This document shows, piece by piece, positions 3,589-50,876 of a DNA stretch of 64,000 nt. The stretch spans positions 62,001 through 126,000 of the forward strand of contig RXIF01000002.1 of the NCBI GenBank assembly GCA_004212075.1, read 5' to 3'. Within the stretch, counting starts at the first letter, position 1, and every line of letters begins with the position of its first letter. The notes under the pieces are model-generated. The model had not been told where the DNA came from, made no database searches, and saw only the letters and a program-made list of their open reading frames with translations. The translations under genes and the position numbers were made by a program. Source of the stretch: Candidatus Methanoliparum thermophilum (lineage in GTDB: Archaea > Halobacteriota > Methanoliparia > Methanoliparales > Methanoliparaceae).

Positions 3589-4839
3589 ATGATCGAGAAA
3601 CCTAGAGGAACGAGAGATTTTCTTCCTGAAGAGATGAATATAAGAAGAATTGTAGAGAAAAAGATGAGAGATGCTGCTGAAAGGTGGGGTTATGTAGAGA
3701 TCAAGACACCAACTTTCGAACATCTCGAACTGTTCACGTTAAAATCAGGAGAGAGTATAATCGATGAGATATATGCGTTCAAAGACAAAGGGGGAAGAAT
3801 GCTTGCGTTACGCCCGGAGATCACTGCACCAGTCATCAGAATTTATATCAATAAGATGCAAAATAGACAAAAACCGTTAAGATTATACTATTTTGATAAT
3901 TGTTTCAGATATGAAAGACCACAAAAAGGCCGTTTTAGAGAGTTTTGGCAATTTGGCATTGAATTAATAGGTGGAAGGAGAGATTTAGCTAATTTTGAAA
4001 TGATCGCTCTTTCTGTGGATATCTTAAGATCTATCGGTCTGAATAATTTTGATCTTCATTTAGGTGATGTTTTTCTCCTTAAAAGATCTATAACACGGAA
4101 TAATAACGATATAGATGAAGAAAAACAGCGAAAGATATTCCGATTAATTGATAAAAAAGATTATAACACACTTAATGCCTTTTTAGATGACGAGAGGATA
4201 GATGGGGAAGGTTTGTTCGCTTTATTAGATTTAAAGGATCTATCTACTATAGATGATATAAAAAAAATCTTTGGTGAGGAAGAGAAGGAGGAGATAGAAG
4301 ATATTTTAAAGATATTAGATCTTTTGAGCATATACGATATACATCCCATATTAGATTTTTCTATCGCAAGAGGCTTGGATTATTACAGCGGTATAGTCTT
4401 TGAGATTTATTCTCGCGGGCTTGGTGCCCAGAAACAGATATGTGGTGGTGGTGAGTACGAACTGATCGAATTGTTTGGAGGAAAATCTGAAAACACTAGG
4501 GGTTTTGCCCTCGGTTTTGATAGAATTATGGAAGTTGTTAAAGAAGAGCGCAAAAACGATAAGAGGATACTCGTTGTTTCCACCGAAGAATGTAGAAGGC
4601 ATGCTATCACTCTTTCAAAAGAGCTCAGAAAGCGGTTTATAGTAGAAACTGATATTATGGGACGAAACTTAAAGGCTCAACTCTCCTATGCAAACTCTGT
4701 CGGAATAAATTTTGCGATTATAATTGGAAGAAAAGAGGTAGAAGAGAATCGGTTTACGTTGAAAAATTTAACAAGTGGAGAACAGTTTTATCTGACGATA
4801 GACAGACTGATCGAGATGTTACAAACCTTTGGTTTGTAG
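3589..4839 (+). CDS. hisS: Histidyl-tRNA synthetase
   Basis: This class II synthetase charges tRNA-His. Visible motifs are the N-terminal KPRGTRDFLPEE, motif 1 region, motif 2 FDNCFRYERPQKGRFREFWQ, the histidine-specific ARGLDYYSGIVFEI, and motif 3 with ENTRGFALGFDRIM. The C-terminal anticodon-binding domain runs from about residue 325 (RILVVSTEE). The 416 residues are normal. The last six codons, LQTFGL plus the TAG stop, lie inside a palindromic repeat (4820-4838), so the native C-terminus appears to have been replaced or extended by the element. Confidence 0.95.
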   Translation: MIEKPRGTRDFLPEEMNIRRIVEKKMRDAAERWGYVEIKTPTFEHLELFTLKSGESIIDEIYAFKDKGGRMLALRPEITAPVIRIYINKMQNRQKPLRLYYFDNCFRYERPQKGRFREFWQFGIELIGGRRDLANFEMIALSVDILRSIGLNNFDLHLGDVFLLKRSITRNNNDIDEEKQRKIFRLIDKKDYNTLNAFLDDERIDGEGLFALLDLKDLSTIDDIKKIFGEEEKEEIEDILKILDLLSIYDIHPILDFSIARGLDYYSGIVFEIYSRGLGAQKQICGGGEYELIELFGGKSENTRGFALGFDRIMEVVKEERKNDKRILVVSTEECRRHAITLSKELRKRFIVETDIMGRNLKAQLSYANSVGINFAIIIGRKEVEENRFTLKNLTSGEQFYLTIDRLIEMLQTFGL

Positions 4840-4860
4840 CTCACGAATCGAAGATTCGTG
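4820..4860. repeat. Palindromic element, two hairpins
   Basis: The first unit, TACAAACC-TTT-GGTTTGTA (4820-4838), forms the 3' end of hisS including the stop codon. The second unit, CACGAATC-GAA-GATTCGTG (4842-4860), follows after a GCT-type linker. Both stems are perfect 8-bp inverted repeats with 3-nt loops. The pair may also act as a transcription terminator between the convergent genes, but it belongs to the dispersed family seen at 13 loci. Confidence 0.85.
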
Positions 4861-4875
4861 ATGTTGGATCTTCTC

Positions 4876-6696: not shown

Positions 6697-6873
6697 AATT
6701 TTTATGTTTAATCATATCTCTTATAAATTTGTTTAATTTCATTATGATAGAACGTATGGAAAACATCAAACAGTATTGCGTTGATAAGTGATGCCACGTA
6801 TATCTTCTCTACATATATACGATTGAATGACATCCATACAGAGCAATTAATCAGTGAGTCTTTTTTATTTTAT

Positions 6874-8817
6874 TTACATGATTACCAATAAAAATCTTGC
6901 AAATAAACCGCCTATTAAAAAGGCGAAGACTGTCTCGAATAATACGATATATATTGCTTTTTTTATGCCTATCTCCCTGACAAGAGCGGCAATTGTTGCC
7001 AAACAAGGAGCATATAACATTGTAGTAAGAGTAAATGTCAGCATTTGAGGTGCAGTCATTATTGCAGATATATTTGTTGTTCCAAATAGAGTTAAAAGCA
7101 TAGTAACGGTTAATTCTTTTCTGACAATACCAAATATCAATACAACACCTGCTAATGGAGGAATTAATAGCCATTCTTCGATTAAAGGACTCAATATATC
7201 TGCTATGGTGCCTGTCAATCCAAACGTATTAAGCAATCCGATAACAAGACTACCGAGGATTATAATAGGAAACGCTATCTTTACAAAATTCATAGTTCTA
7301 TATGTTGCCTGACTTGCTATCACCTTTAAAGATGGTCTCCTAAGAGGTGGCATCTCCATTATAAGACCTAATGGTTCTCCTGGTGCAAATTTATATGCTA
7401 TCTTTCCGAAAAAAGCTATGATAACAAGAATAATAACATAAAGAAGAAAAACATACTCTATACCAAGGTTTTTCCCAACGATACTCATTATCACGATATT
7501 AATCGCGGAACAGGGAACCAAAGTAGATAGAAATATCGAGATCTCTCTCTCTCTTTCCCCCTCAATTATCCTACATCCGAGACATCCTGGTACATTGCAA
7601 CCAAACGAGATGATCAAAGGTATTATTGCCTTTCCATGGACTCCAATCTTGTGCATCAATCCATCCGACAGAAATGCGGCTCTGGCAATATACCCAGTAT
7701 CTTCTATTATCCCGAATAAGAGATAGAACGGTATTATGTACGGAAGAACGATCGTTAATCCGGCAACGAACCCTTCATATATCAAGCCTAAAACACTTGT
7801 GGTAGTAAAAAGATTTAATAAAATCGATTCAAGGAATGCGCTAACAAAATCACCGAATGAGAATATACAATAGAATATAGATAAAAATAAGATTATAAAA
7901 AATATAGAGCCGGTGAAATAATTTGTAAAAAATCTATCTAGTCTATCTATAAACGATTCTTCTGTCTTCAATATCGTCTGTACTTCGTTTACTATCTTAG
8001 TTACAACGAAATATCTTTCTGCTGAGATATATGTGAAGAGATCATCTTTAACACGATCTTTAAGATGTTGGATTATATCATCTACACCTTTTATTTCTAC
8101 ATCTTTTGGTTCGGTTCCTTCTAAGATCTTTATTGCTAACCAACGTTTAGGATATCCTTTATATCTTTCTTCGTTTAATCTTTCACATATCCTTTCGATC
8201 GCATCTTCTAACTCTTTCCTATACTCTATCTTCTTTTGTGGTTTTAATCTGTTTTCATGCAGAACCAAGGTTCCCGCACCTCCTGGCGATTTCTCAACCA
8301 GGAGTGAAGAACGTCTGTTTTCATAGACATATATTGCCTTATCAAGTAATTCTGAAAATCCTTCCCCTTTTATTGCAATTGTTTGAACTACTGGCACTCC
8401 TAAAATCTTGCTAAGTTTATCAATATCGATATAGATGCCTTTAGATCTCGCAAGATCGGCCTGATTTAGTGCTATTAACAGAGGTATCCTCATCTCTATC
8501 AATTGCAAAGTTAAATAAAGGTTTCTTTCAAGCGTGGACGCATCTAAAACGTTTATAACTATATCTGGATTATTTTTAAATATGTAATCCCTTGTTATCT
8601 CCTCTTCCGATGAAAAAGATGAGAATGAATAGATACCAGGGAGATCTATGATATCAATCAAATAATCTCTAAATTTCAATCGTCCTTCTGCCAGCTCTAT
8701 AGTTGTTCCAGGCCAATTTCCTATATGTTGGTGTAATCCTGTCAGATTATTAAAGATTACGCTTTTTCCTACGTTTGTATTTCCTACAAGAGCTATTTTT
8801 ATCTTCTTTTCATTCAT
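6874..8817 (-). CDS. feoB: Ferrous iron transport protein B
   Basis: FeoB is the membrane Fe(II) transporter with a cytosolic GTPase domain. Residues 1-165 show G1 GNTNVGKS, G3 DLPGIYS and G4 NQAD. The C-terminal half holds the two Gate repeats and about eight membrane segments (VLPYIIPFYLLFGIIED, ISFGCNVPGC with the conserved Cys, FGIVRKELTVTML). It overlaps the upstream DtxR-type gene by 8 nt. Residues about 171-190, just after the G domain, are encoded by a palindromic repeat (8259-8304) inserted in frame, which lengthens the linker to the membrane domain. Confidence 0.95.
   Translation of the reverse strand: MNEKKIKIALVGNTNVGKSVIFNNLTGLHQHIGNWPGTTIELAEGRLKFRDYLIDIIDLPGIYSFSSFSSEEEITRDYIFKNNPDIVINVLDASTLERNLYLTLQLIEMRIPLLIALNQADLARSKGIYIDIDKLSKILGVPVVQTIAIKGEGFSELLDKAIYVYENRRSSLLVEKSPGGAGTLVLHENRLKPQKKIEYRKELEDAIERICERLNEERYKGYPKRWLAIKILEGTEPKDVEIKGVDDIIQHLKDRVKDDLFTYISAERYFVVTKIVNEVQTILKTEESFIDRLDRFFTNYFTGSIFFIILFLSIFYCIFSFGDFVSAFLESILLNLFTTTSVLGLIYEGFVAGLTIVLPYIIPFYLLFGIIEDTGYIARAAFLSDGLMHKIGVHGKAIIPLIISFGCNVPGCLGCRIIEGEREREISIFLSTLVPCSAINIVIMSIVGKNLGIEYVFLLYVIILVIIAFFGKIAYKFAPGEPLGLIMEMPPLRRPSLKVIASQATYRTMNFVKIAFPIIILGSLVIGLLNTFGLTGTIADILSPLIEEWLLIPPLAGVVLIFGIVRKELTVTMLLTLFGTTNISAIMTAPQMLTFTLTTMLYAPCLATIAALVREIGIKKAIYIVLFETVFAFLIGGLFARFLLVIM
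8259..8304. repeat. Palindromic element inside feoB
   Basis: GCAGAACC-AA-GGTTC is followed by CTCCTGG (8280-8286) and its inverted partner CCAGGAG (8298-8304). The core GCACCTCCTGGCGATTTCT recurs at 10570-10588 with one change. In feoB it is read in frame and encodes KSPGGAGTLVLHE. It lies in the poorly conserved linker after the GTPase domain, where an insertion could be tolerated. Confidence 0.75.
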
Positions 8818-10551: not shown

Positions 10552-10660
10552 GTAGAACCTACGGTTCCTGCACCTCCTGGTGATTTCTGTTTCTGGATAC
10601 ACAGTCCAGCATTGCGCTGTTACGAATCGAAGATTCGTTACAAACTAAAGGTTCGTAACA
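10552..10660. repeat. Composite palindromic element array
   Basis: The array contains GTAGAACC-TAC-GGTTC, then the core GCACCTCCTGGTGATTTCT shared with the feoB copy. A weak ACAG...CTGT hairpin follows, then TACGAATC-GAA-GATTCGT (10621-10638) and an imperfect TTACAAAC/GGTTCGTAAC hairpin. It fills the whole spacer between the rfcS-like and Cas4-like genes. Read upstream of rfcS it gives a spurious 21-codon N-terminal extension. Confidence 0.75.
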
Positions 10661-10667
10661 TTTGTTT

Positions 10668-11459
10668 TCAGAAAAATTTTGATAATAAACTTCTTGTTAC
10701 TATACACTCATCTTTATATATACAATGCTCACAGAATACTCTATCCTCGCGTTCAGGTAGTCTTCCTCTTCGTATCTTCTTTATCTTTTCTTTAATATTG
10801 AGAACAAGCCGTCTATCATATCTATTTATTTCGACTAATACAGGTCTTCCGCATCTAAAATATTCTACGACACCCTTACTGATAATTCTTCCTGTCTCTT
10901 CTTCTAATAACATAATATATGCTGTTAACTGAGCTCTATCTTCTTTCCAGATGCTTATACTTGGAGAATTTCCGGTTTTTACAATATTTGGAATCTCTTC
11001 ATCGTTAAATATCACAATTTTATCTATTATTCCATGTAGACCCAATCTATCCAAGTATATTCTTCTTTCGACCTCTATGGGTGTCATTAATTGTTTTATC
11101 AGCAATCCATCTGTATTTAACCTGTTCCATAACCGTTCTGCAATCTTTTTAATCTCTCTCTTTACATCCTCTTTTGCAGTACAGATAATTTCTTGATCGA
11201 TATTCTTTAAACCATCTTTATATATCTCTTTTATTCTATCCTCACTCTTTACAAGAGATTTTAAGAGCAACTGTTCTATAGTCTCCCTGTCCTCCCAATC
11301 TATCGAATAAAGGAGATCATCTAACGAGATCTCTTTGATAAAAAGGTGTTTAACAAATCTTTCATCTATCATCTCCCACCTATCTCGATCTCCTTCTCGG
11401 AAATACACGATTCGAGGACAGATCATATATTGCCTAATATCTGATGCGGATACGTTCAT
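10668..11459 (-). CDS. Cas4/Dna2-like PD-(D/E)XK exonuclease (not CRISPR-linked)
   Basis: This protein has the Cas4-like layout: an N-terminal SASDIRQYMICPRIVYF with the first cluster Cys, the nuclease strand GIIDKIVIF with the metal-binding Asp, IVKTGNSPS, the DRAQLTAYIMLLEE helix, and a C-terminal FCEHCIYKDEC trio. Together these suggest a [4Fe-4S] RecB-like nuclease. The Glu expected in the ExK motif is Ile here (I-V-K), as in some archaeal Cas4-like relatives. No cas1 or cas2 is nearby, so a repair or recombination role is more likely than spacer acquisition. Confidence 0.75.
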   Translation of the reverse strand: MNVSASDIRQYMICPRIVYFREGDRDRWEMIDERFVKHLFIKEISLDDLLYSIDWEDRETIEQLLLKSLVKSEDRIKEIYKDGLKNIDQEIICTAKEDVKREIKKIAERLWNRLNTDGLLIKQLMTPIEVERRIYLDRLGLHGIIDKIVIFNDEEIPNIVKTGNSPSISIWKEDRAQLTAYIMLLEEETGRIISKGVVEYFRCGRPVLVEINRYDRRLVLNIKEKIKKIRRGRLPEREDRVFCEHCIYKDECIVTRSLLSKFF

Positions 11460-14048: not shown

Positions 14049-15032
14049 ATGAGTTTTGGAATAGAATTTTTACCAAATATGGAAGTAGAAAAGATCGTAA
14101 ACTACTCATGTTTGGCAGAAGAAAACGGATTTGAGAATATTTGGGTAACAGACCATTATAACAACAGGAACGTTTATGCGGTACTAGCAATGATTGCAGC
14201 AAATACAAATAGGATAAAAATAGGTCCTGGCGTTACAAACAGCTATCAGATTCATCCTGCCGTAACGGCTTCTGCGGTAGCAACGATTAATGAATTATCC
14301 AAAGGACGTGGTGTGTTAGGTATAGGTCCTGGTGATAAAACAACTCTCAGTAAGCTTGGCATAAAGTTTGAAAAACCAGCTAAAAGATTAAAAGAAGCGG
14401 TGGATATAATAAAAGGATTATGGGCAGGAGAGTCGGTAAAATACGATGGAGAGTTTTTTGATATAAATGGTGCAAAGATGGATTTCAAGACAGAAGATAT
14501 TCCTATATACATAGGTGCACAGGGTCCTGTAATGTTAAAGATAGCTGGTATGATCGGAGATGGTGTTTTGATAAATGCATCAAACCCCAAAGATTTCGAG
14601 GTATCGATACCTCTCTGTAAAGAAGGGATGAAAGAGGTTGGTAGGGAAGATTTTGATATAGTTGCTTATACATGTTTCTCGATAGATAAAGAGTCTAAAA
14701 AAGCTAAAAATGCTGCAAAAATCGTTGTTGGATTTATTGTAGCAGGAAGCCCGGATATCGTATTTGAAAGACATAATATCGATTTAGAAGATGTTAAAAA
14801 GATAAGAGAAGCATTAGGACGGTTTGATTTTGGCACTCTTAAAAAATCTGTTACTGATGAGATGTTAGATGCTTTCTCTATATGTGGCTCTCCAGAAGAA
14901 TGTATAGAGAAGATAGAAAAACTTTATAAGGTAGGGGTAACTCAGATCGTTGCAGGAAGTCCGGTAGGCCCAAATATGGAGACGTCGATAAAAATAATCG
15001 GTGAAGAGATATTACAAACCAAGGGTTTGTAA
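14049..15032 (+). CDS. mer: 5,10-methylenetetrahydromethanopterin reductase
   Basis: Mer is the F420-dependent luciferase-fold enzyme interconverting methylene- and methyl-H4MPT in methanogenesis or its reverse. The match to known Mer is strong throughout: FGIEFLPN, VTDHYNNRNVYAVLA, GPGVTNSYQIHPAVTASA, GIGPGDKTTL, IPIYIGAQGPVMLK, DGVLINASNPKDFE, AYTCFSIDKE, IVAGSPVGP. The ATG at 14049 is chosen because GGAGGGG lies eight bases upstream and MSFGIEF fits family N-termini. The final residues LQTKGL and the stop come from a palindromic repeat. The presence of mer argues against an ANME-1 affiliation. Confidence 0.95.
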   Translation: MSFGIEFLPNMEVEKIVNYSCLAEENGFENIWVTDHYNNRNVYAVLAMIAANTNRIKIGPGVTNSYQIHPAVTASAVATINELSKGRGVLGIGPGDKTTLSKLGIKFEKPAKRLKEAVDIIKGLWAGESVKYDGEFFDINGAKMDFKTEDIPIYIGAQGPVMLKIAGMIGDGVLINASNPKDFEVSIPLCKEGMKEVGREDFDIVAYTCFSIDKESKKAKNAAKIVVGFIVAGSPDIVFERHNIDLEDVKKIREALGRFDFGTLKKSVTDEMLDAFSICGSPEECIEKIEKLYKVGVTQIVAGSPVGPNMETSIKIIGEEILQTKGL

Positions 15033-15053
15033 ACCGCAAATCGGAGATTTGTG
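15013..15053. repeat. Palindromic element, two hairpins, at the 3' end of mer
   Basis: TACAAACC-AAG-GGTTTGTA (15013-15031) supplies the last codons and TAA stop of mer. CGCAAATC-GGA-GATTTGTG (15035-15053) follows with one wobble pair. The arrangement matches the hisS 3' copy, with the same order of units and same reading frame. Confidence 0.85.
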
Positions 15054-15162
15054 ATAATTAAAAATAGATAAATAAATATCGTTGTGCAATTATAGAATCA
15101 AATCCAAATTTTAACTTTATTTTTTTATTTATATATACTAAAATAAGACTGGGGTAGATTAC

Positions 15163-16191: not shown

Positions 16192-16713
16192 ATGAAAAGG
16201 GCTTTTTATATTGGGCGTTTTCAACCGTACCATAAAGGGCACCATGCGATCATAGATATGATCTCTAAAGAGGTAGATGAGATCATTATAGGGATAGGTA
16301 GTGCCCAATTAAGCCATACGCTGAACGACCCTTTTACTGCAGGAGAGCGAGTAATGATGATTACTCGCTCTCTATGCAATTTAAATATAATGTATTATGT
16401 AATACCTATAGAAGATATAAACAGGCATGCTCTCTGGGTCTCACATATTAAGTCTATGGTTCCCCCTTTTAACACTGTTTATTCTAACAACCCGCTTGTT
16501 ATAAGACTTTTTGAGGAAGAAGGGATAGAAGTAAAAACTTTTCCATTATTGAACCGAGAAGAGTATATGGGTGAAAAGATAAGAGAAAGAATATTGAACG
16601 ATGAAAAATGGGATGATCTTGTGCCAAAAGCCGTTTTTGAAGTTATTGAAGAGATAAAAGGAAAGGATAGGTTAAAAAGAATAAAGATGAGTGATAGACA
16701 TATGAGTTTTTAG
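16192..16713 (+). CDS. nadM: Nicotinamide-nucleotide adenylyltransferase
   Basis: NadM makes NAD from NMN and ATP. The HxGH nucleotidyltransferase motif is in FYIGRFQPYHKGHHA. The core IIGIGSAQLSHTLNDPFTAGERVMM, split here by function, matches archaeal NadM, and the C-terminal MGEKIRERIL replaces the ISxSxxR-like loop. The 173-residue length is typical. An exact 13-bp inverted repeat (16343-16372) lies within the conserved TAGERVMMITRSL region. Confidence 0.93.
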   Translation: MKRAFYIGRFQPYHKGHHAIIDMISKEVDEIIIGIGSAQLSHTLNDPFTAGERVMMITRSLCNLNIMYYVIPIEDINRHALWVSHIKSMVPPFNTVYSNNPLVIRLFEEEGIEVKTFPLLNREEYMGEKIRERILNDEKWDDLVPKAVFEVIEEIKGKDRLKRIKMSDRHMSF

Positions 16714-17666: not shown

Positions 17667-17731
17667 TTACAAATCGAAGATTTTTGATATTAAAAATCAA
17701 AGATTTTTAGTCCACGAATCAAAGATTCGTG
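17667..17731. repeat. Palindromic element array, three hairpins, at the 3' end of tmk
   Basis: TTACAAATC-GAA-GATTTTTGA, TAAAAATC-AAA-GATTTTTA (17691-17709) and CACGAATC-AAA-GATTCGTG (17713-17731). The last two overlap the final codons of tmk on the minus strand (SRIFDSWTKNL and stop). It is one of three copies in or at the end of tmk. Confidence 0.8.
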
Positions 17732-18407
17732 ATAATTCTTTAACTAGTTTTCTTTCAACTTGTTCTATATTTTCATTAGCATCAATCTTGATAAACCTAC
17801 CGGGTTCCTCTTCGGCAAGTTTTAGATAGTTCTTTTGGACTTCTTCTAAAAACTCTCTCTTTTCAAACAATATCAATCTTTGTTCTCGTTGTCTTATTCT
17901 CTCCATCGCTATATCTATATCTACTACCAACAAAATTGTATAATTAGGAGTTATGGAAAAAGGACTATGTATCTTTTTTAACCATTTTATCGGATCGTTA
18001 CGAATCTCTGATTCGTAGCTCACAAATCTTTGATTTGTGATGCTGAAATATTTTTTGAGAGTAACACCTTGATATGCATACCTACTATCTATATATCTAT
18101 CAACTATTACAATTTTTCCTTGCTCGAGAGATGGTCTGATTAATCTGGATATATGTTCAGAGTGGTCAGCCATGAAGAGAAAAGTCAACGATAGAGGATT
18201 AATATCAGAATTTAAAAATCTTTTTACTGTTATTCCAGTATCGTAATCTGTAGGTTCTTTCGTATAAACTATATTCTTATTTAATTTATTGCAAATCTTT
18301 GATTTGCGATTTACGAATCGAAGATTCGTAATATTTTTAACACTCTCTACCAGCGAGGTCTTTCCTGAACCGTCTATCCCTTCTATGCTTATTAATCTTC
18401 CATCCAT
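17697..18407 (-). CDS. tmk: Thymidylate kinase with two in-frame repeat insertions
   Basis: Tmk phosphorylates dTMP to dTDP. The P-loop is SIEGIDGSGKTS; VYTKEPT, the DRY of IVDRYIDSRYAYQGVTL, and the LID-like RIRQREQR are present. At 236 residues it is about 30 longer than archaeal relatives. Residues about 25-40 (NITNLRFVNRKSKIC) and 122-137 (SITNQRFVSYESEIR) are encoded by palindromic repeats at 18290-18331 and 17999-18039, in the same relative frame. They interrupt SLVESVKN/NIVYTKEPT and LKKYF/NDPIKWLKKIH. The C-terminus is also repeat-derived. The enzyme should still fold if the insertions sit in surface loops. Confidence 0.9.
   Translation of the reverse strand: MDGRLISIEGIDGSGKTSLVESVKNITNLRFVNRKSKICNKLNKNIVYTKEPTDYDTGITVKRFLNSDINPLSLTFLFMADHSEHISRLIRPSLEQGKIVIVDRYIDSRYAYQGVTLKKYFSITNQRFVSYESEIRNDPIKWLKKIHSPFSITPNYTILLVVDIDIAMERIRQREQRLILFEKREFLEEVQKNYLKLAEEEPGRFIKIDANENIEQVERKLVKELSRIFDSWTKNL
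17999..18039. repeat. Palindromic element inside tmk (second insertion)
   Basis: TACGAATC-TCT-GATTCGTA (17999-18017), GCT linker, CACAAATC-TTT-GATTTGTG (18021-18039). Both units have 8-bp stems and 3-nt loops. Read on the minus strand they encode SITNQRFVSYESEIR, which is absent from other thymidylate kinases by my knowledge of the family. Confidence 0.85.
18290..18331. repeat. Palindromic element inside tmk (first insertion)
   Basis: GCAAATC-TTT-GATTTGC (18291-18307) and TTACGAATC-GAA-GATTCGTAA (18311-18331). On the minus strand they encode ITNLRFVNRKSKICN, near-identical in pattern to the other tmk insertion, so both elements entered in the same orientation and frame. Confidence 0.85.
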
Positions 18408-18778: not shown

Positions 18779-18802
18779 GCTCACAAATATTTGATCTATG
18801 AT
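18779..18802. repeat. Decayed palindromic element unit
   Basis: GCTCACAAATATTTGATCTATGAT matches the GCT-CACAAATC-NNN-GATTTGTG-AT consensus at most positions but no longer forms a perfect stem. It lies between the 33-aa frame and the 3' end of the GTPase gene and shows that older copies degrade. Confidence 0.55.
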
Positions 18803-19801: not shown

Positions 19802-19824
19802 TTTTCTCCTTTTGAAAACAAATG

Positions 19825-19889
19825 TTACGAAGCCTTGCTTCGTAGCTCACAAATCTTCGATTTGTGATGCAGGAACTTTGGTTCTGCAT
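19825..19889. repeat. Palindromic element array, three different hairpins
   Basis: TACGAAGC-CTT-GCTTCGTA (19826-19844), then CACAAATC-TTC-GATTTGTG (19848-19866), then ATGCAGGAAC-TTTG-GTTCTGCAT (19867-19889). This is the fullest copy and shows the modular order: a TACGAATC-type unit, a CACAAATC-type unit, and a GCAGGAAC-type unit. The final T pairs into the stop codon region of the aconitase X gene. Confidence 0.85.
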
Positions 19890-29786: not shown

Positions 29787-30593
29787 ATGTACTTTTGTGG
29801 ATTAGATATTGGATCTTGCATGAGCAAGATTGTATTGATAGATGAGAACGAAGATATCGTCTGTTATAGATCTTCTAAGAGTGGGTTTGAGATAAGAAAG
29901 ACGATCTCTAATCTATATGAATCCGTTTTAAAAGATCAAAATATCAGAAAAGATCAGGTCAAATATATCGTTGCGACTGGTTATGGTAGGAATGTTGCTT
30001 TAGCCTTTTTTGCAGACGATAAAGTGACAGAGATTACCTGTCATGCCAAAGGTGTGCATAAAATATTTCCAAAATGTCATACAGTTATAGATATCGGCGG
30101 ACAGGACTCAAAAGCGATAAGATTGGATATAGACGGTAGAGTGTCCACTTTTGTGATGAACGATAAATGTGCTGCAGGAAGTGGCAGGTTTTTAGAAGTG
30201 ATGAGCAACGCTATAGGAGTATCTGTGGATGATTTAGGTTTATTGTCGATGAAATCCAAGAATAAAGCCACTATTAGCAGTACTTGTACCGTTTTTGCTG
30301 AGACTGAGGTAATTTCTATGATTGCATCTGAGGTAAAGAGAGAAGATATAATAGCAGGAATACATGATGCTATTGCTACAAAGGTGAGTGCATTGACTAG
30401 AAGTACAGGTATTGAGGATGAGGTAGTCATGACCGGTGGTGTAGCCAAAAATATTGGTGTTGTAAAGTCTTTGGAAGAGAAGATAGGCCATGTCATCTAC
30501 GTTCCTCCGGAACCACTTATAACCGGAGCTTTGGGTGCTGCTTTGATAGCAAAGGATAGATACGAATCGAAGATTTGTGATGCAGAAACGTAG
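29787..30593 (+). CDS. ATP-dependent activator of dehydratase/benzoyl-CoA reductase (HgdC/BcrD-like)
   Basis: This ASKHA-fold ATPase forms a dimer bridged by one [4Fe-4S] cluster and injects electrons at low potential into its partner. Conserved elements are CGLDIGSCMSK, VIDIGGQDSKA, MNDKCAAGSGRFLE (Cys128), SSTCTVFAETEV (Cys167), VMTGGVAKN and GALGAAL. A single ATPase gene implies a homodimeric activator as in 2-hydroxyacyl-CoA dehydratases, rather than the BcrAD heterodimer. The last residues, RYESKICDAET, and the stop are encoded by a palindromic repeat. Confidence 0.9.
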   Translation: MYFCGLDIGSCMSKIVLIDENEDIVCYRSSKSGFEIRKTISNLYESVLKDQNIRKDQVKYIVATGYGRNVALAFFADDKVTEITCHAKGVHKIFPKCHTVIDIGGQDSKAIRLDIDGRVSTFVMNDKCAAGSGRFLEVMSNAIGVSVDDLGLLSMKSKNKATISSTCTVFAETEVISMIASEVKREDIIAGIHDAIATKVSALTRSTGIEDEVVMTGGVAKNIGVVKSLEEKIGHVIYVPPEPLITGALGAALIAKDRYESKICDAET

Positions 30594-30600
30594 TTTTGCT
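30561..30600. repeat. Palindromic element at the 3' end of the activator gene
   Basis: TACGAATC-GAA-GATTTGTG (30561-30579) is followed by GCAGAAAC-GTA-GTTTTGC (30582-30599). It encodes the C-terminal YESKICDAE and stop of the activator. The peptide matches the YESEIR and RKSKIC segments of the tmk insertions. Confidence 0.8.
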
Positions 30601-30636
30601 TAGATTTTAAATTTTGATAAAAAGAAGGGAGTAAAA

Positions 30637-32394
30637 ATGGATAAAAAAAAGACGACAAAAGAGATTTTAAAAGAAAAAATTAGAGAAGGAAAGACCCCTT
30701 TGTATGATCAAGAGACGATAAAAAAAACTGATAAAAAATTCGAGATGTGGAAAAATACAAAAGTAAGCGAAAAAGATAGAGAAAAATGGGAGATAGTACC
30801 ACAAACAATATTAGGATCAGAAATTCCTAGAAAACTGTTATATACTCCTTTAGATGTGGCAAACTTGGATTATATAGAAGATATAGGATTTTCTGGAGAT
30901 GAGCCATTCACACGTGGTTGTTATCCTAACATGTACAGGGGAAGAGTATTCACGATGCGGCAACTCTCTGGGGCAGGATCTCCAGAAGATGTCAATAAAA
31001 GGTTAAAATTTCTGTTAGAATCTGGCGCAACCGGAACTAATCTGGCATTGGATCTGCCTACAGTTCAGATGTTCGATTCGGATGAGCCTGAATCGATAGG
31101 CCAAGTAGGGACGGTTGGCGTACCGATTGATTGTGTCCAGGATATGGAGACAATCTACGATGGTATCCCGATCGATGAGATCAGCTCTTCTATCGTTACC
31201 CATTATCCTAGAAACACCGCTATTATATTTCCTATGTTTTTAGTAATGGCAGAAAGAAGAGGATATGATTGGAAAAAACTACCAGGAAGTGTGCAGAACG
31301 ATGTCACAATGGAATGTATCGTTAGACGGGCACCGGAATATATACCTCCTGCCGATGCTTTTAGAGTACAGTGTGATAATATAGAGTTTATAAGAAACGA
31401 AGTACCTAGATGGAATTATATTACCTTGAATGGATATAATCTGCGCGAATATGGAACATCAAGCATTACAGAGATGGCTGTTGCTTTTGCTAATGGCATA
31501 GCAATTATCGAGGAGATGCAAAAGAGAGGATACGATCCTGATTGGATATCAGAAAGAATAGCATTCTTTTGGAGCGTAGGAAACGATTTTTTTGAAGAAA
31601 TAGCAAGATTACGTGCTGCAAGGAGACTATGGTACAAAATAATGAAATATAAATTTGATTCAAAACAATCGAGATCTCAGTTAGAGAGATGCCATGTACA
31701 GACATCTGGCATCTCATTGCAACGTATAGAGCCTTATAATAACGTTATAAGAGCTGCATATCAGGCTTTGGCAGCGATTTTAGGAGGTTGCCAATCTTTA
31801 CATGTAGATTCATATACTGAGGCTTATTCTGTACCTTTGGAAGAAGATTCGTTACTATCACTAAGAACTCAGCAGATTATTGATGTAGAGACGGGTGTTA
31901 CACAAGTTGTAGATCCCATGGCAGGATCGTTCTATATAGAGAACTTAACGGATATTATGGAGGAAAAGATACTAGAAGAGATAGAGGAAATTGAAAAACA
32001 AGGTGGTTATGTCAAGATTATCGAGAGCGGATGGATCCATAATAGAATTTCGAGATTTATAGAGGAGGAGCGTAGAAAGATCGATGATGGTACGATCAAG
32101 GTCGTAGGATATAATTATTATAGACAGCCGGATGTAAAGGAGCCTCCAATCAAATGCCAAGAGGTATCCGAAGAGATAAGAGAGAATCAGATTAAGAAAT
32201 TAAAAAAATGGAGAGCAGAAAGGGATAACGATAAAGTAGAGAGCTGTCTTGATGAGATTGTGGATGCATGCAGATCTGGAGAGAATGTAACTTACAAAAC
32301 GCTTGCGGCTGCAAGAGCTGGTGCTACAGAAGGAGAGATGAGAAAAAAGTTTACAGAAGCATTTGGTCTATGGAAACAACCATTAGTTTTATAG
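30637..32394 (+). CDS. B12-dependent acyl-CoA mutase large subunit, divergent
   Basis: The 585-residue protein is the TIM-barrel catalytic subunit of the methylmalonyl-CoA mutase family, without the B12 domain. MYRGRVFTMRQLSGAG, SVQNDV and HVQTSG align with family motifs. At the specificity sites it has Leu110 (Tyr89 of methylmalonyl-CoA mutase; Phe in isobutyryl-, Ile in 2-hydroxyisobutyryl-CoA mutase), Arg230 (Arg207, which binds the substrate carboxylate), and Asn268 (His244). Ala137 rules out the Asp of 2-hydroxyisobutyryl-CoA mutase. The combination suggests a carboxylated acyl-CoA with a larger or different side chain. Paired with the small subunit 11 bp downstream. Confidence 0.85.
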   Translation: MDKKKTTKEILKEKIREGKTPLYDQETIKKTDKKFEMWKNTKVSEKDREKWEIVPQTILGSEIPRKLLYTPLDVANLDYIEDIGFSGDEPFTRGCYPNMYRGRVFTMRQLSGAGSPEDVNKRLKFLLESGATGTNLALDLPTVQMFDSDEPESIGQVGTVGVPIDCVQDMETIYDGIPIDEISSSIVTHYPRNTAIIFPMFLVMAERRGYDWKKLPGSVQNDVTMECIVRRAPEYIPPADAFRVQCDNIEFIRNEVPRWNYITLNGYNLREYGTSSITEMAVAFANGIAIIEEMQKRGYDPDWISERIAFFWSVGNDFFEEIARLRAARRLWYKIMKYKFDSKQSRSQLERCHVQTSGISLQRIEPYNNVIRAAYQALAAILGGCQSLHVDSYTEAYSVPLEEDSLLSLRTQQIIDVETGVTQVVDPMAGSFYIENLTDIMEEKILEEIEEIEKQGGYVKIIESGWIHNRISRFIEEERRKIDDGTIKVVGYNYYRQPDVKEPPIKCQEVSEEIRENQIKKLKKWRAERDNDKVESCLDEIVDACRSGENVTYKTLAAARAGATEGEMRKKFTEAFGLWKQPLVL

Positions 32395-32405
32395 GAGGGT
32401 CAAAA

Positions 32406-32813
32406 ATGAATGAAAAGAAGATTAAGGTATTATTATCTGCTTATAGTCTTGAAACGCATTCTAGAGGGATTATCACCGTAGCAAGTATCCTCAGAGATGC
32501 TGGAATGGAGGTTATCTATATAGGTAACAATCGACCTGAAAGTATAATAGAGTCTGCCATTCAAGAGGATGTCGATGTGGTAGGGATAACCTCAATGTGC
32601 GGTGGTGCTCTACAGCTTGGAAGGGAGTTAATGAGGACCGCAGATGAAAAAGGTGTGAAAGATAGGATGAAATTTGTATTGGGCGGGATTTTTCCACCAG
32701 AAGAGGAGGCTGATCTTAAAAAAATAGGGTTCGAATTACTCTTTAAACCTGGAGCAACTTCCGACGAGATCGTCAATGGGATAAGATCTATAGTTGGTAG
32801 CAGCACGTCTTAA
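32406..32813 (+). CDS. B12-binding small subunit of the acyl-CoA mutase
   Basis: A 135-residue Rossmann-like cobalamin-binding domain. The base-off motif reads ETHSRG (residues 16-21) in place of DxHxxG: the axial His18 is kept and Asp is replaced by Glu. SMCGGALQLGRELM and FVLGGIFP are the usual following loops. GGAGGGTC lies just upstream of the ATG, supporting 32406 over a longer frame from 32268. Together with the large subunit it forms the split mutase. Confidence 0.88.
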   Translation: MNEKKIKVLLSAYSLETHSRGIITVASILRDAGMEVIYIGNNRPESIIESAIQEDVDVVGITSMCGGALQLGRELMRTADEKGVKDRMKFVLGGIFPPEEEADLKKIGFELLFKPGATSDEIVNGIRSIVGSSTS

Positions 32814-32816
32814 CAT

Positions 32817-32856
32817 CACAAATCTTCGATTTGTGAGCTACGAACAAGAGTTCGTA
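32817..32856. repeat. Palindromic element, two hairpins
   Basis: CACAAATC-TTC-GATTTGTG (32817-32835), AGC linker, then TACGAAC-AAGA-GTTCGTA (32839-32856). It separates the convergent mutase small subunit and meaB genes and could act as a bidirectional terminator. Confidence 0.8.
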
Positions 32857-32867
32857 ATATCAAAATA

Positions 32868-33818
32868 CTAAATATTTATATCTTTTAAAATCTTTTTTAT
32901 TATCTCATCTTTGGCAACATACGGTGTAATCTCCTTTGATACAAGTTTTTTAATGTATAAATCTAATATCTCATCCTTATTGATATTTTCTAATATTTTT
33001 CTTTTTACATCATCTATTATAAGATTTAATAATTCTTCTTTAATCTTATCTCTCTCTTTCTCGTACAAAGATCCTCTCTCTTTTTGATAAACCCAATGTT
33101 TCTCTATCGCACTTATGAGATCTACTACTCCCTCATTCTTTAAGGCTACAGTCTTAATTACTAATGGTTTCCACTCTTTAGAAGAGAGGTTAAATACTGT
33201 TTTTAAATCCATTACAAGCTGATCCGCACCGGCCAAATCTGCCTTGTTAACCACCACTATATCTGGAATCTCGAACATTCCCGCTTTTATTGTCTGTATT
33301 ACATCACCTAGTCCAGGTACTACTACAACAATAGTAGTATGAGCAAGTCTTGCTATATCTACTTCAACTTGGCCTGCACCTACCGTCTCGATCAAGACTA
33401 TGTCGTATCCCGCAGCATCGAAGACCTTTGTTATCTCGTGAGTGGATTTAGACAATCCACCATACGATCCTCTCGTACCTATGCTCCTGATAAAGGTATT
33501 CTCGTCTAAAAAACAATCTTGCATTCTTATCCTATCTCCTAAGATCGCACCACCATGAAAAGGGCTCGTCGGGTCTATCGCAATTACTGCTACCTTTTTA
33601 TCTATATTCCATTCTTTTACCATCTGGTTTATCAAGGTGGATTTACCAACACCAGGGGGACCAGTAATCCCAATAATTTGGCATCGGCCTGTATATGGGT
33701 ATAATCTGTCTATAATATAGGAAACTTTAGGATCCCTATTATCTACAAGTGTTATAATCTTTGAAATTGTCTTTTTATCTCCTGATAAAACCTTTTTGAC
33801 AAGATCATTCTCATCCAT
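32868..33818 (-). CDS. meaB: MeaB/ArgK-family mutase chaperone GTPase
   Basis: MeaB protects and reloads B12 acyl-CoA mutases. The G motifs are ITGPPGVGKSTLINQM, IDPTSPFHGGAILGDRIRM, ETVGAGQVEVD and VVVNKADLAGAD. The start at 33818 (MDENDLVKK) is preferred; the frame extends to 33890 without a ribosome binding site. It converges on the mutase genes and presumably serves that enzyme. Confidence 0.93.
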   Translation of the reverse strand: MDENDLVKKVLSGDKKTISKIITLVDNRDPKVSYIIDRLYPYTGRCQIIGITGPPGVGKSTLINQMVKEWNIDKKVAVIAIDPTSPFHGGAILGDRIRMQDCFLDENTFIRSIGTRGSYGGLSKSTHEITKVFDAAGYDIVLIETVGAGQVEVDIARLAHTTIVVVVPGLGDVIQTIKAGMFEIPDIVVVNKADLAGADQLVMDLKTVFNLSSKEWKPLVIKTVALKNEGVVDLISAIEKHWVYQKERGSLYEKERDKIKEELLNLIIDDVKRKILENINKDEILDLYIKKLVSKEITPYVAKDEIIKKILKDINI

Positions 33819-33868
33819 GCTTACGATAGTCTCTTTTAATATTATATATAACTTTATTCTTTTGATGG

Positions 33869-33930
33869 TGAAAACTGTCAGGATAAGCATCTCAATTTAA
33901 AGCCAGAGCTTTTATCTTGATATCTTTCTT
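33869..33930. repeat. MITE-like repeat, copy 2
   Basis: Shares AAAACT-TCA-GATAAGCA and TAAAGCCAGAGCTTTTATC with the copy at 23003, in the same orientation, ending in TTGATATCTTTCTT. Its left inverted end is partly diverged. The two copies flank the whole catabolic island. Confidence 0.7.
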
Positions 33931-44245: not shown

Positions 44246-45601
44246 ATGGGTAATGGTAATATAATATCAAATTTAAATAGCAAAAAAGAAGTATTCATCT
44301 CTGTATTTCTTGCTATCCTATCTTTTTTTATACCATTACTCGATAAAAAAGTAATAATATTAATTTTAGCTCTATCTCTTGGATTTTTTTTATATATAAA
44401 GGTAAAAATAGTTTATTATCATCTGTTTGAGTCGTTGATTATCTTTTCATGTCTGACCATTATCGGTTTACCCGAATTTTTTATAAGTTATGCTATAATA
44501 ATCTTCTTATTAATATATTGGATAAAAAAGATATATAAAGACGATAAAGATGAGGATTTTCTAATAATACGAGATGTTGCAAATCGAAGATTTGCGGCTC
44601 ACAAACCTTTGGTTTGTGATGTTTTTATAATATTCTTCTCTATTGTTTTGATATTTTTATTCACTCTATTCTACGAACAAATCGGGCTATCAATGATACA
44701 GACCAACCTGGTATTTTTAATATCCATATTGGGGATAATCTTAGCAATACTCTTCTCTACACTCACAGATTATGAAAGGTATGGTTGGGTAATCCCTTCT
44801 ATGTCGATATTTATGATGTGGGTATTTTATTCTTTTGCGTGGATCTGTTCATATATACCTCCACCAAAACGTTACGTAGTCTTCGTTCTTGCCTTGATGA
44901 TAGCGATAGGATATATATCGGTTAAGACAAATCTTTTAGACATATCAGGCGTGCATAGCAGCACTCTGCTTGGCTTGACCGTTATGATTTTTGGAGGCTT
45001 AAGATGGTTTTTCATTCTATTATCCTTCTATATCGTTGGATGCATATCTACGAGATACAAATATGATTATAAATATTCGCTAGGGATAGTAGAAGGGAAA
45101 AAAGGAGAGAGAGGCTACGCCAACGTCTTTGGTAATGGACTTGCAGGTACGATCTGCGCTATAAGCTATGGTATATCACACAGTATAAGTACATTGACAG
45201 GATCGTTTCTCTTATTATTGGCTTTTATTGGATCTATTGCAACAGCAACAGGAGACACCATGGCAAGTGAGATAGGAGAGACTTACAAAGGTAAGACTGT
45301 ATCGATCATAAATTTAAAGCCTGTACCTGCAGGAACTAACGGTGGAATATCAAAATTGGGAGAATTATCTGCTTTAATTGGAGCTTTTATAATCTATTCG
45401 GTTGCTTTAATATCAAATCTACCTATAAATAACTTAGATAGTCTGGTTGCAATCATATTTGGTAGTTTCATTGGAGTAAATATAGATAGCATTTTAGGTG
45501 CTACTATAGAGGATAAGTACCTCAATAATAGCCTTGTAAATCTCATTGCCACATCTATGGGTGGATTGTCTACTGTTCTAATTTATGTGATGATCAGGTA
45601 A
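44246..45601 (+). CDS. DUF92/TMEM19-family membrane protein with repeat insertion
   Basis: A polytopic membrane protein of 451 residues with about ten hydrophobic segments. The DUF92 core is residues about 230-450, with GVHSSTLLGLTVMIFGGLRW, GNGLAGTI, ATATGDTMASEIG and LKPVPAGTNGGISKLGELS. Relatives phosphorylate isoprenols such as phytol, which would fit archaeal lipid or side-chain recycling. Residues about 111-125 (VANRRFAAHKPLVCD), in the loop after the first hydrophobic cluster, come from a palindromic repeat inserted in frame. tbp and this gene are co-transcribed. Confidence 0.85.
   Translation: MGNGNIISNLNSKKEVFISVFLAILSFFIPLLDKKVIILILALSLGFFLYIKVKIVYYHLFESLIIFSCLTIIGLPEFFISYAIIIFLLIYWIKKIYKDDKDEDFLIIRDVANRRFAAHKPLVCDVFIIFFSIVLIFLFTLFYEQIGLSMIQTNLVFLISILGIILAILFSTLTDYERYGWVIPSMSIFMMWVFYSFAWICSYIPPPKRYVVFVLALMIAIGYISVKTNLLDISGVHSSTLLGLTVMIFGGLRWFFILLSFYIVGCISTRYKYDYKYSLGIVEGKKGERGYANVFGNGLAGTICAISYGISHSISTLTGSFLLLLAFIGSIATATGDTMASEIGETYKGKTVSIINLKPVPAGTNGGISKLGELSALIGAFIIYSVALISNLPINNLDSLVAIIFGSFIGVNIDSILGATIEDKYLNNSLVNLIATSMGGLSTVLIYVMIR
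44578..44618. repeat. Palindromic element inside the DUF92 gene
   Basis: GCAAATC-GAA-GATTTGC (44579-44595), a GGCT linker, and CACAAACC-TTT-GGTTTGTG (44600-44618). The whole is read through without a stop and encodes ANRRFAAHKPLVCD, which parallels the peptide ITNxRFVxYESxI of the tmk copies. Confidence 0.85.
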
Positions 45602-48024: not shown

Positions 48025-48038
48025 TAAAATACATCTAT

Positions 48039-49988
48039 CTACTCTTTATCTTCTCTTCGCTTTTTCCCAAAATAGTATGAGTAATGTGCATAATATGGTC
48101 CCATCTTTTTTATCTCCTCCTCTCTTAGCTGTTTTTTCAAAATTTTACCTGTGGCAGTTTTAGGCAGCGAGTCTCTAAATTCTATCTGTTTAGGAACAGC
48201 ATACGGCGGAAGTTTCTTTCTCAAATAATCTAAAATATCTTCTTCTCTAAGTTTATCTTCGTATCCTTTTCCTGGGACTATTATAACCTTTATCAGATCA
48301 CTCCCTGGCCTGGAAGGATCTGGATAGCCTATGGTTGCCACCTCTTCTACACCAGGATATCCGTATAACATATCATCGATCTCTCTTGGATATACCTTAT
48401 AACCGGATACGTTTATCATATCTTTGACCTTATCTACTATAAACATTCGTCCCCATTCATCTATCTTTACTACATCACCCGTATGAATGAATCCGTCTTC
48501 ATCAATGCCTGAACCGATATCAGGCCAATAGCCGAGCATCTGCCACGGTGCTCTTAAGCACATCTCACCAAACATCTCTTCTTTCACTACTACATCGATA
48601 GGTATCTCTTCTTCGGTAAAAATATCCCTGATTTTTACATCTGTATCTACTGCAGGAACTCCTATCGTACCCATTATCTCTTTTTTTCTCCCGTCCAGAG
48701 TGGTTAATGTATTTCTAGATATGAATATTATAATCCTATTTATCAGCAATCCAAGATCCTTAGGAGATAATAGGTTTAATATACTCTTTATCTGCTGATA
48801 TATCTCGATCGTCTTAAAAAAATTGTTTAAAAGTTGGAATACCTCACCTGTCCGTTCTTCACTACCAAAAATCGGAGTAAGAACTGATATTAACGATGGA
48901 ACATGTGTTACAGGAGCAAATTCTGCCAAGCCATATGCCTCCATCATGATACTTCTAGTCTTTTCTTCGAATTGCATATGAATCATTGGTGAAAGAGGCA
49001 TAGAACCTGATACGGCAATAAGTCCAAGATCCTCCACATCATCCTCTTTTAAAACCTTCATGTATTGAACAGGAGCACCAAAACAGATCACTGGATTATA
49101 CTTCCGAGCTAATTTGACAAACTCTTTCGTATCTCTCGGATCGGTTATTAATAAGACGCCATATCCGTGCCTTAAGCCTATAATCGTCATTCCATGCCCA
49201 TAGGTATGATATTGGGGTAAAGGCATCAGTATCCGTAACAACCCGTCACATAGATTAATGATCGGTTCAGGTAGTATCGATCCAAAAAAACTTACCGTAT
49301 GTGCAACCAATCCATAATGAGAGAGCATTACACCTTTTGGAATACCTGTAGCGCCACCTGTATATGATATAATAGCGATATCCCTCTTTGGATCGATATC
49401 TACTTTAGGTGGGTTAGGAGGATATTTATCGATCAAGTCTGTGAGCCATAATACATCTTTTTCAAGATGATCTGGTTTATTTAAAGAGTAGTCTTCTTTT
49501 TTTGTAAGGATTATATTATTTATTCGTGTTAATTCTGCCACTTTTTTAATTTTAGTTATTAAGTCTCCTTCGTTCACGTTTGTATAACAACAAATTACAT
49601 TCTGGCATTCAGTCATCTTGAACTTGTTAGCCAAACCATCTACCGAATCTATTACGCTAGCCGGTAGATGTATCGCACCGATTTTGGTGATTGCAAAATC
49701 TGATATAACGTATTGGATAGAAGTAGGAAGAACAGTAGCTACTACGTCTCCTTTTTTAATACCTAAATCTGCTAATGCTGTGGCAAGCCTATCCACATGA
49801 TCTTTCAACTCTTTAAACGTTATCTCGTAATCGAATTGAGCCAATGCCATATTATTAGGCCATTTTTCAGCTGGCTCGTCGAGATGATACTCGGTATATG
49901 TCTTTATCGGATAAGGCTCGAATGTTTCAGGAAGCGACATGAAATCATATAGTCTTAACCAAGGCTTTTTCAAATATTTTATCTTCAT
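48039..49988 (-). CDS. AMP-forming long-chain acyl-CoA synthetase with insertion
   Basis: This enzyme activates a carboxylic acid with ATP and CoA. Conserved motifs: YTGGATGIPKG (209-219), EAYGLAE, IHTGDVVKIDEWGRMFIVDK, and the lysine motif LPKTATGKIL. The 649 residues include an extra segment of about 75 residues (about 364-438, LISVLTPIFG to RKKEIMG) between EFAPVTHVPS and TIGVPAVDTDV, rich in amphipathic helix. It may bind the membrane or lipid. It likely activates fatty acids derived from alkanes for the beta-oxidation genes at 23-27 kb. Confidence 0.92.
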   Translation of the reverse strand: MKIKYLKKPWLRLYDFMSLPETFEPYPIKTYTEYHLDEPAEKWPNNMALAQFDYEITFKELKDHVDRLATALADLGIKKGDVVATVLPTSIQYVISDFAITKIGAIHLPASVIDSVDGLANKFKMTECQNVICCYTNVNEGDLITKIKKVAELTRINNIILTKKEDYSLNKPDHLEKDVLWLTDLIDKYPPNPPKVDIDPKRDIAIISYTGGATGIPKGVMLSHYGLVAHTVSFFGSILPEPIINLCDGLLRILMPLPQYHTYGHGMTIIGLRHGYGVLLITDPRDTKEFVKLARKYNPVICFGAPVQYMKVLKEDDVEDLGLIAVSGSMPLSPMIHMQFEEKTRSIMMEAYGLAEFAPVTHVPSLISVLTPIFGSEERTGEVFQLLNNFFKTIEIYQQIKSILNLLSPKDLGLLINRIIIFISRNTLTTLDGRKKEIMGTIGVPAVDTDVKIRDIFTEEEIPIDVVVKEEMFGEMCLRAPWQMLGYWPDIGSGIDEDGFIHTGDVVKIDEWGRMFIVDKVKDMINVSGYKVYPREIDDMLYGYPGVEEVATIGYPDPSRPGSDLIKVIIVPGKGYEDKLREEDILDYLRKKLPPYAVPKQIEFRDSLPKTATGKILKKQLREEEIKKMGPYYAHYSYYFGKKRREDKE

Positions 49989-50126
49989 TATATACTCCTC
50001 TTTGTTATAAGATAATTGTAAATAATCTATATTATAAAATACGAAAGGATGATATATAAATATTTTTGATGCTATAATCTTAAAAAATTTATTAGCCTAA
50101 AGTCTAAACGTATAACTAGGATAATG

Positions 50127-50876
50127 TTACAAGTCTTTGACTTGTAATGGCTCTTTCGTTATCTTTAAGAAGATATCCTCCAATGTTGATGTTGGTGGGC
50201 TTCTATACATATCTCTAAGTTCTTTAAGGGTTCCTGTCGTTATTAAATTGCCTTTGTTGAATACTCCAACAGTTGTACAGAGCCTTTCTGCCACGTCTAG
50301 TATATGGGTGGATAACAATATTGTACAACCACCTTCTGCTTTTTCACGAATAATATCTTTAAAATTCTTCTGGCTCATCGGGTCCAGCCCGTTTAACGGC
50401 TCGTCCAATAGCAATACCTTTGGATCATTTATTAATGTCGCCATTATCGCCACTTTCTGCCTCATACCATGGGATAACGATCCTATATAACTTTTTAATT
50501 TATCTTTTAAATCAAATATCTCACCATAATCTATTATCCGTCTTTCTAACGTATCTTTTTTTACTCTTTTGAGACTACCAATAAAGGTTAGAAACTCCTC
50601 AATGGTTAGATACTCGTAAAGACTTGGGTCTTCTGGTAAATATCCTGTGTATTGTTTGTAATTATTTACATCATTCTCGCCAAGCACAAATATCTCCCCA
50701 TAAGTCGGTTTAAGAAGCCCAATAATCATTTTAATTGTTGTACTTTTTCCTGCACCGTTAGGTCCTAAAAGACCAAATATTTCGCCTTTATTGATGATTA
50801 AATTGAGATTATCAACCGCTACAAAATCACCAAACTTTTTAGTCAGGTTAATTGTCCGTATTGCCTCTTCAATCAT
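50127..50876 (-). CDS. ABC transporter ATP-binding protein
   Basis: A single ABC ATPase of 249 residues: Walker A LLGPNGAGKSTT, Q-loop region GYLPEDPSLYEYLT, signature LSHGMRQKV, Walker B VLLLDEPLNGLDP, and H-loop LSTHILD. It resembles ABC-2 type exporters. The permease is not in the window. The last residues, LQVKDL, and the stop are encoded by a palindromic repeat, matching hisS and mer in pattern. The gene sits 11 bp downstream of aroD on the same strand. Confidence 0.9.
   Translation of the reverse strand: MIEEAIRTINLTKKFGDFVAVDNLNLIINKGEIFGLLGPNGAGKSTTIKMIIGLLKPTYGEIFVLGENDVNNYKQYTGYLPEDPSLYEYLTIEEFLTFIGSLKRVKKDTLERRIIDYGEIFDLKDKLKSYIGSLSHGMRQKVAIMATLINDPKVLLLDEPLNGLDPMSQKNFKDIIREKAEGGCTILLSTHILDVAERLCTTVGVFNKGNLITTGTLKELRDMYRSPPTSTLEDIFLKITKEPLQVKDL
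50128..50148. repeat. Palindromic element unit at the 3' end of the ABC gene
   Basis: TTACAAGTC-TTT-GACTTGTAA, a perfect 9-bp stem with a 3-nt loop. Read on the minus strand it encodes LQVKDL and the stop codon. This is the rightmost copy I find in the window. Confidence 0.8.

Follow-up and report, generated by a model that had tools for sequence, protein, structure and literature searches.

The GC42 cluster of yeast mitochondria is a palindromic hairpin of ~42 nt that is accompanied by short direct repeats and has no coding capacity (PMC4478555). The Rickettsia palindromic elements (RPEs) are 105–146 bp long with one long stem and terminal repeats of ~12 bp and have no established target duplication, while Correia/NEMIS and RUP are MITEs of about 100–200 bp with 2-bp TA duplications (PMC2229807). 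Among archaea, palindromic repeats with coding potential inside genes are attributed to Methanocaldococcus jannaschii (Suyama et al. 2005, as cited in PMC2229807). It has long been an open question how hairpin-only elements such as RPEs, yeast GC clusters and double-hairpin elements move.

Here, a 64,000-nucleotide stretch of the Candidatus Methanoliparum thermophilum genome (the window) was analysed, in which the initial annotation had listed hairpin units at 13 loci. Hairpin units were found at all 13, that at 18779 being badly decayed and those at 50128 and 30561 single or partly decayed. The hairpin types, which had been taken as one family, are real but belong to two different elements, namely a 43-bp double hairpin (the core element) and a 64–75-bp element (unit 2). 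With a small genome and a close relative at hand, it could be read directly where these elements end, which footprint and target preference they have, where empty sites lie and in what order copies nest.

Structure and copy number of the core element

The core element spans 43 bp and has the order T-hairpin-GCT-hairpin-A, with two 8-bp stems closing on 3-nt loops. Its sequence frame is TTAC..GTA-GCT-CAC..GTGA with TTAC..GTGA as the outer ends, and the linker between the two hairpins varies among copies (GCT, AAC, ACT, GCC and GTC). When up to two mismatches are allowed, the window contains 23 occurrences of the half-element ACRAAYCNNNGRTTYGT, against 2.6 expected and a maximum of 6 in 100 shuffles. 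The search of the complete genome that had been proposed as a check brought up many more copies. In the 1,257,141 bases (1.26 Mb; 12 contigs, 86% complete), there were 51 exact pattern matches against 0 for the reversed control pattern, and a covariance model of the two-hairpin form detected ~45 distinct places at E ≤ 1.4e-4; these counts come from the pattern and model searches together with the stretches around matches in this genome. The mcr operon had been described as free of the elements and, consistent with this, the sole match there (38296) has two mismatches, which is within chance.

Each strand of the element folds into a pair of hairpins, with z near −7 for DNA and between −6 and −7 for RNA, and comparison of the element with Rfam gave no match. 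When pairs were counted in the aligned copies, 7 of 16 were changed on both sides; the accompanying figure of 98% paired is inflated because the aligned copies had been picked for pairing. The triloops were pure purine or pure pyrimidine in 62 of 62 cases. Once these were folded onto the purine strand, all departures from GAA were transitions (46 to 0), compared with 82 transitions and 27 transversions in the stems (loop versus stem, p = 4e-5), and the variation per site was 0.48 in loops versus 0.11 in stems. Furthermore, the purine or pyrimidine orientation of the loop was independent between the two hairpins of one copy (Fisher p = 0.47). This pattern fits a constraint on the folded form plus occasional hairpin flipping, and it may also be read as a single ancestral purine loop that has changed mainly by transitions and inversion. 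A perfect hairpin with a 13-bp stem (GAGAGCGAGTAATGATGATTACTCGCTCTC), located in an ORF at 16343–16372 of the window, is unrelated to this hairpin family.

Insertion footprint and nesting

The nearest relative, the metagenome-assembled genome UBA8915 (G001; DUJX, titled “Halobacteria archaeon”), belongs to the same genus and is syntenic at 82–85% identity across most of the window positions 1–22996 and 30500–33900. The element was absent from UBA8915 at 11 of the 11 window loci open to comparison. Four of these were clean empty sites, three for the core element with 45-bp insertions in the window (15012, 17998 and 18289) and one for unit 2 with a 66-bp insertion (8259); at some others (17667, 18779, 19825, 30561 and 32817), the alignment runs through rearranged spacer. 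One double-hairpin copy was seen in UBA8915 itself (L016), flanked by CA/CA. Setting filled against empty orthologous loci, as the initial annotation had suggested, defined the 43-bp ends and the 2-bp target duplication, the gain of 45 bp being made up of the 43-bp element and 2 bp repeating the dinucleotide of the opposite side.

An exact 2-bp direct repeat was found at 26 of the 32 unique core copies. When the copies nested in unit 2 were left out, the repeat was present at 19 of 24 copies against 7.3 expected from random re-pairing of left and right flanks (0 of 20,000 shuffles reached 19), the remaining five not matching at both bases. The signal was confined to boundary offset 0 and was lost when the right boundary was moved by at least one base. 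The duplicated dinucleotides among the 19 were TA (10), TG (5), AG (2), AC (1) and AA (1), and because they vary, the repeats are target duplications and not fixed ends. A preference for TR was observed (15 of 19 against a background of 14.7%, p = 7e-10), preceded by a purine run, which gives RAGA-TR. Thus, the empty sites in UBA8915 together with exact 2-bp repeats in the RAGA-TR context indicated mobile insertions with a 2-bp target-site duplication. Comparison of the genomes shows that the core element enters RAGA-TR-like targets as one defined unit and leaves a 2-bp direct repeat.

Unit 2 is a separate element of 64–75 bp with the arrangement GCAGAACC..GGTTCCTGCACCTCC..[AGTCCAGC..GCTGGACA]..GTGAAGAAC..TTTTC, and it inserts independently of the core element, as in the FeoB gene, where it adds 66 bp or 22 codons. 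Its 2-bp repeats match in ~5 of 13 copies, and a duplication is claimed for the FeoB case at most, where an 11-bp direct repeat offers an alternative reading. Unit 2 was also considered as a structured RNA, a candidate that was dropped for its weak fold (z −1.4 to −2.1). Within unit 2, two positions recur as sites of nested core elements, CTGCA^CCTCC and AACA^TTTG, with CA/TG repeats (L004, L006, L178, L184; L066). The chaining of hairpins in a preferred order, noted in the initial annotation, was borne out, and the modular chains are explained by nested insertion of core elements inside unit 2. In the window, a unit 2 carrying two nested core-type hairpins near its right end lies upstream of rfcS (10552..10669, + strand), and a deleted unit 2 (GAAAACAAATG...TGCAGGAAC..GTTCTGC; 19814..19887, − strand) holds a nested core at 19825–19867 with TG/TG; both are absent in UBA8915.

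Single hairpins of 21 bp with 2-bp repeats were found in the window at the 3′ end of a gene for an ABC ATPase (50127..50147, no strand assigned; TG/TG), and the AACA site of unit 2 holds others in L188 and L081. They may be independent minimal insertions or deleted double elements, and the window copy is possibly a minimal mobile unit. Two other single hairpins are decayed, one of core type (17668..17686, + strand) adjoining the core element at 17690..17732, and a strongly decayed one at 18780..18800 (no strand assigned), where the alignment to UBA8915 is poor.

Copies inside genes and occurrence in relatives

The 32 copies were sorted into 13 inside ORFs, seven that end an ORF via their own stop codon and 12 in spacers. 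Because the element and its duplication together add 43 + 2 = 45 bp, the reading frame is kept, and a typical core copy is free of stop codons in two of its six frames. All 13 intragenic copies were in an open frame (~1.5e-5 if frames were unconstrained), a test that is weakened by the “inside” class itself being defined by an intact ORF and for which the comparison of flanks serves as a check. In that comparison, the copies not inside ORFs had different genes on either side, and a gene interrupted by a copy with a closed frame did not turn up. The intragenic copies encode a near-identical peptide, xTNQRFVxHxSxIRD, in 12 of 13 cases. Their hosts across the genome include CofE, IorA, mevalonate kinase, FlaI (archaellum ATPase), RqcH and an ABC ATPase and, by inspection, a CobN-like chelatase.

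The initial annotation had placed copies in spacers, at gene ends and in frame within four genes. All three kinds of placement were found, the in-frame copies being in three window genes (FeoB, TMPK and a TIGR00297 membrane protein), while the RfcS copy at 10552 most likely precedes the true start of that gene. The FeoB gene, on the − strand, contains the 64-bp short form of unit 2 (8259..8322, + strand), which adds its 22 codons in frame between AT/AT flanks and has a clean empty site in UBA8915. TMPK, which was identified by its match to solved thymidylate kinases (E 5e-22), carries two core elements in frame, one at 17998..18040 (+ strand; 15-aa insert ITNQRFVSYESEIRN; flanks CG/TG) and the other at 18289..18331 (− strand; 15-aa insert ITNLRFVNRKSKICN; TA/TA). 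In comparison with the UBA8915 orthologues, the inserts in TMPK amount to exactly 15 + 15 aa and that in FeoB to 22 aa. Besides these inserts, the TMPK of M. thermophilum (17697–18407) is without a 14-residue stretch found in the UBA8915 protein. The TIGR00297 protein has one core element in frame (44577..44619, + strand; VANRRFAAHKPLVCD; TG/TG).

New C-termini are supplied by core elements, all on the + strand, in HisS, Mer and TMPK. The copy at the hisS 3′ end (4819..4861; TG/TG) provides the stop codon and is absent from the UBA8915 orthologue. The copy at the mer 3′ end (15012..15054; TA/TA) brings a new stop codon, and its empty site in UBA8915 reads GAGATAATTAAA. The last 11 codons and the stop codon of TMPK are those of the copy at 17690..17732 (TA/TA), and UBA8915 is without this element. 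In addition, a partly decayed hairpin pair lies at the 3′ end of the gene for an acyl-CoA dehydratase activase (30560..30600, + strand), and a 42-bp core element with one loop of four directly follows the gene for a methylmalonyl-CoA mutase C-terminal domain (32816..32857, − strand; flanks CA/TA); both are absent in UBA8915.

Across the phylum, 394 genomes were scanned, and more than two matches were obtained only in the five genomes of the Methanoliparum family (51, 6, 24, 14 and 18) and in one outlier, G133 (7). A pattern scan of named genomes brought up NM1b, GoM_oil, GoM_asphalt and UBA8915, with no Rickettsia among the matches, and the pattern search of viral contigs found no copies. The genome set contained Candidatus Methanolliviera hydrocarbonicum NM1b (G002), Methanolliviera GoM_asphalt (G003) and Methanolliviera GoM_oil (G004); NCBI places Methanolliviera in the class Ca. 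Methanoliparia, and the window’s genome (G000) belongs to the same family-level group. Paired singletons in other genomes (for example Prevotella HAN020 and Planctomycetales) were set aside as isolated and at about the chance level estimated for the pattern. In Prevotella sp. HAN020 (L243, L229), one isolated well-formed double hairpin of similar type was seen along with a second partial match, which could be chance.

The genomes of the sister genus Methanolliviera have related, longer hairpin chains with stems that differ from the M. thermophilum type. Hairpin units of 47 bp, 48 bp and 100 bp, the last with four hairpins, were found present or absent between GoM_asphalt and GoM_oil, and this polymorphism indicated that hairpin units turn over within the family. 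No clean 2-bp repeat was found at these polymorphic units, and on present comparisons the 2-bp footprint is shown for the M. thermophilum type only. Among the compared pairs (L248/L249, L272/L273 and L280/L281), the 48-bp insert is apparently in a coding region, and the 100-bp unit is the four-hairpin one. A tandem array of near-identical hairpin units (GCGAATCAAAGATTTGCGAGTTT) is also present in GoM_asphalt (L278, about 3127–3219) and absent in GoM_oil. The outlier G133, from another family of the phylum and with ~56% GC, contains arrays of ~16 different perfect hairpins over ~430 bp (L250:14509–14930 and L252:9507–9900), with stems of 7–10 bp closing on C-loop-G and a few recurring linkers (ggc, acgt, tgtgcga). 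In L250, 15 of the 16 loops are pure purine or pyrimidine, a bias shared with the M. thermophilum hairpins.

Possible mechanisms and comparison with known systems

The elements are probably non-autonomous mobile DNA that is mobilised in trans, with 2-bp duplication, nesting and in-frame tolerance. Insertion, 2-bp duplication, target preference, nesting and frame compatibility are shown at the level of sequence. In the proposed mechanism, an enzyme supplied in trans would recognise either the hairpins in folded form or the short inverted ends, and the same enzyme would make a 2-nt staggered cut and join the element to the target, after which host repair would fill the 2-nt gaps. Intragenic copies would be translated as 15-residue inserts and not removed, and the elements would be selfish passengers tolerated where the frame remains open. 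A search for a mobiliser in the 86% complete M. thermophilum genome with the Y1_Tnp (PF01797), RVT_1, IS110 and rve models gave no gene. A more specific idea, that an archaeal transposition system recognises folded hairpins rather than long ends and moves units down to one 21-bp hairpin, is possible but doubtful. If it were true, the same architecture in the G133 arrays (C-loop-G closing and pure triloops) would point to archaeal hairpin elements as a broader class with an undescribed mobiliser in common. For the search for the enzyme, the elements offer a defined substrate, and they also provide a natural collection of 15-residue insertions that core archaeal enzymes tolerate.

Other routes of movement have to be weighed against this. 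Insertion of a hairpin RNA at new positions by reverse transcription or reverse splicing, a route suspected for yeast GC42, would account for the growth in copy number and agrees with the stable folding of the element RNA and with the mechanism proposed for GC42 (PMC4478555). We regard such RNA copy-and-paste as unlikely, because no RVT_1 gene was found in M. thermophilum, UBA8915 or NM1b, and the target preference with an exact 2-bp repeat is equally typical of a DNA transposase. The hairpin-only units, dimers and clusters also resemble REPs, which in part lie within genes (PMC3733652). As REP/REPIN-type elements, they would be moved with single-stranded hairpin DNA as the substrate of a RAYT or IS200-like Y1 transposase. 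Y1_Tnp genes are present in Methanolliviera GoM_asphalt and GoM_oil, but none was found in M. thermophilum, UBA8915 or NM1b, although the copies are most numerous in the first of these. Furthermore, Y1 transposition is not expected to produce a 2-bp target duplication, the conserved GTAG/CGTC tag is missing, and linkers and flanks are variable, all of which make this route quite improbable.

Some readings do without mobility or translation of the copies. The location of 7 of 32 copies at gene ends and 12 of 32 in spacers would suit elements selected for a host function, as transcription terminators, RNA-processing sites or protein-binding sites; it seems very improbable that they are such, given the presence/absence differences between close relatives at every compared site, the copies inside genes and the lack of an Rfam match. 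Skipping of intragenic copies by ribosome bypassing, or their removal by splicing, comes to mind as short hairpin inserts in conserved genes resemble the 81 insert blocks of Magnusiomyces mitochondria (PMC5009743). All 13 intragenic copies, however, lie in an open frame with a gain of 45 bp, and the failure to find a gene split by a closed-frame copy favours translation, so that bypassing or splicing is thought highly improbable. What the sequences favour is that intragenic copies are predicted to be translated as 15-residue inserts. Least probable of all is that the palindromes are non-mobile, made and lost locally by replication template-switching and kept similar by gene conversion. The random loop orientation between the hairpins of a copy suggests that local palindrome inversion may occur, but such an origin is hard to square with a single 43-bp sequence whose ends are constant in unrelated surroundings and which has a 2-bp target repeat as well as clean empty sites, and a dispersed consensus is not expected from local errors.

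Our literature search found no paper linking Methanolliviera with “palindromic”. Among described systems, REP/BIME mosaics likewise consist of small hairpin units in dimers and mosaics (PMC3733652), whereas the core element is without the GTAG/CGTC tag, has a target duplication and comes with no RAYT that we could find. The general features of MITEs are present, the core element being short and non-coding with inverted ends TTAC/TCAC, a 2-bp target duplication and empty sites. The IS630/mariner-type rule of an invariable TA does not hold, as TA makes up 10 of the 19 duplications beside TG, AG, AC and AA. Correia/NEMIS and RUP are similarly short, non-coding and mobile with inverted ends and short target duplications, but they are tied to TA, whereas the core element is 43 bp long and duplicates other dinucleotides too, and the Y1_Tnp, RVT_1, IS110 and rve models brought up no partner insertion sequence. 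The M. jannaschii repeats, compared here by description only, share an archaeal methanogen host, a palindromic form and the fusion of some copies into protein genes, although M. jannaschii is of a different class of archaea from the Ca. Methanoliparia host. With that report, as the citing survey presents it (Suyama et al. 2005, cited in PMC2229807), the general idea of palindromic coding repeats in methanogens is not new, contrary to what the initial annotation had supposed.

The likeness to RPEs in behaviour, which that annotation had pointed out, holds, since both are dispersed palindromes that occur in spacers, at the ends of genes and, with the frame kept, inside conserved ones (PMC2229807, PMC10969869), have no coding capacity for mobility and form several sequence families per genome. 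Membership among the RPEs is unsupported, as these are long-stem elements of 105–146 bp (PMC2229807), whereas the archaeal core fits two separate 8-bp stems into 43 bp and is flanked by an exact 2-bp duplication, and unit 2 has 64–75 bp. The GC clusters of yeast mitochondria and the core element are alike in that loops vary more than stems, units merge or shuffle and copies show presence/absence polymorphism. GC clusters are GC-rich and mitochondrial, whereas the archaeal element has a varying repeat dinucleotide and many in-frame gene copies, a comparison made by description; common descent with GC42 or other GC clusters is implausible given the host. As judged from published descriptions, the archaeal elements behave like RPEs and yeast GC clusters with membership in neither shown, and GC42 appears closest to the core element in size, structure and footprint, with no membership claimed.
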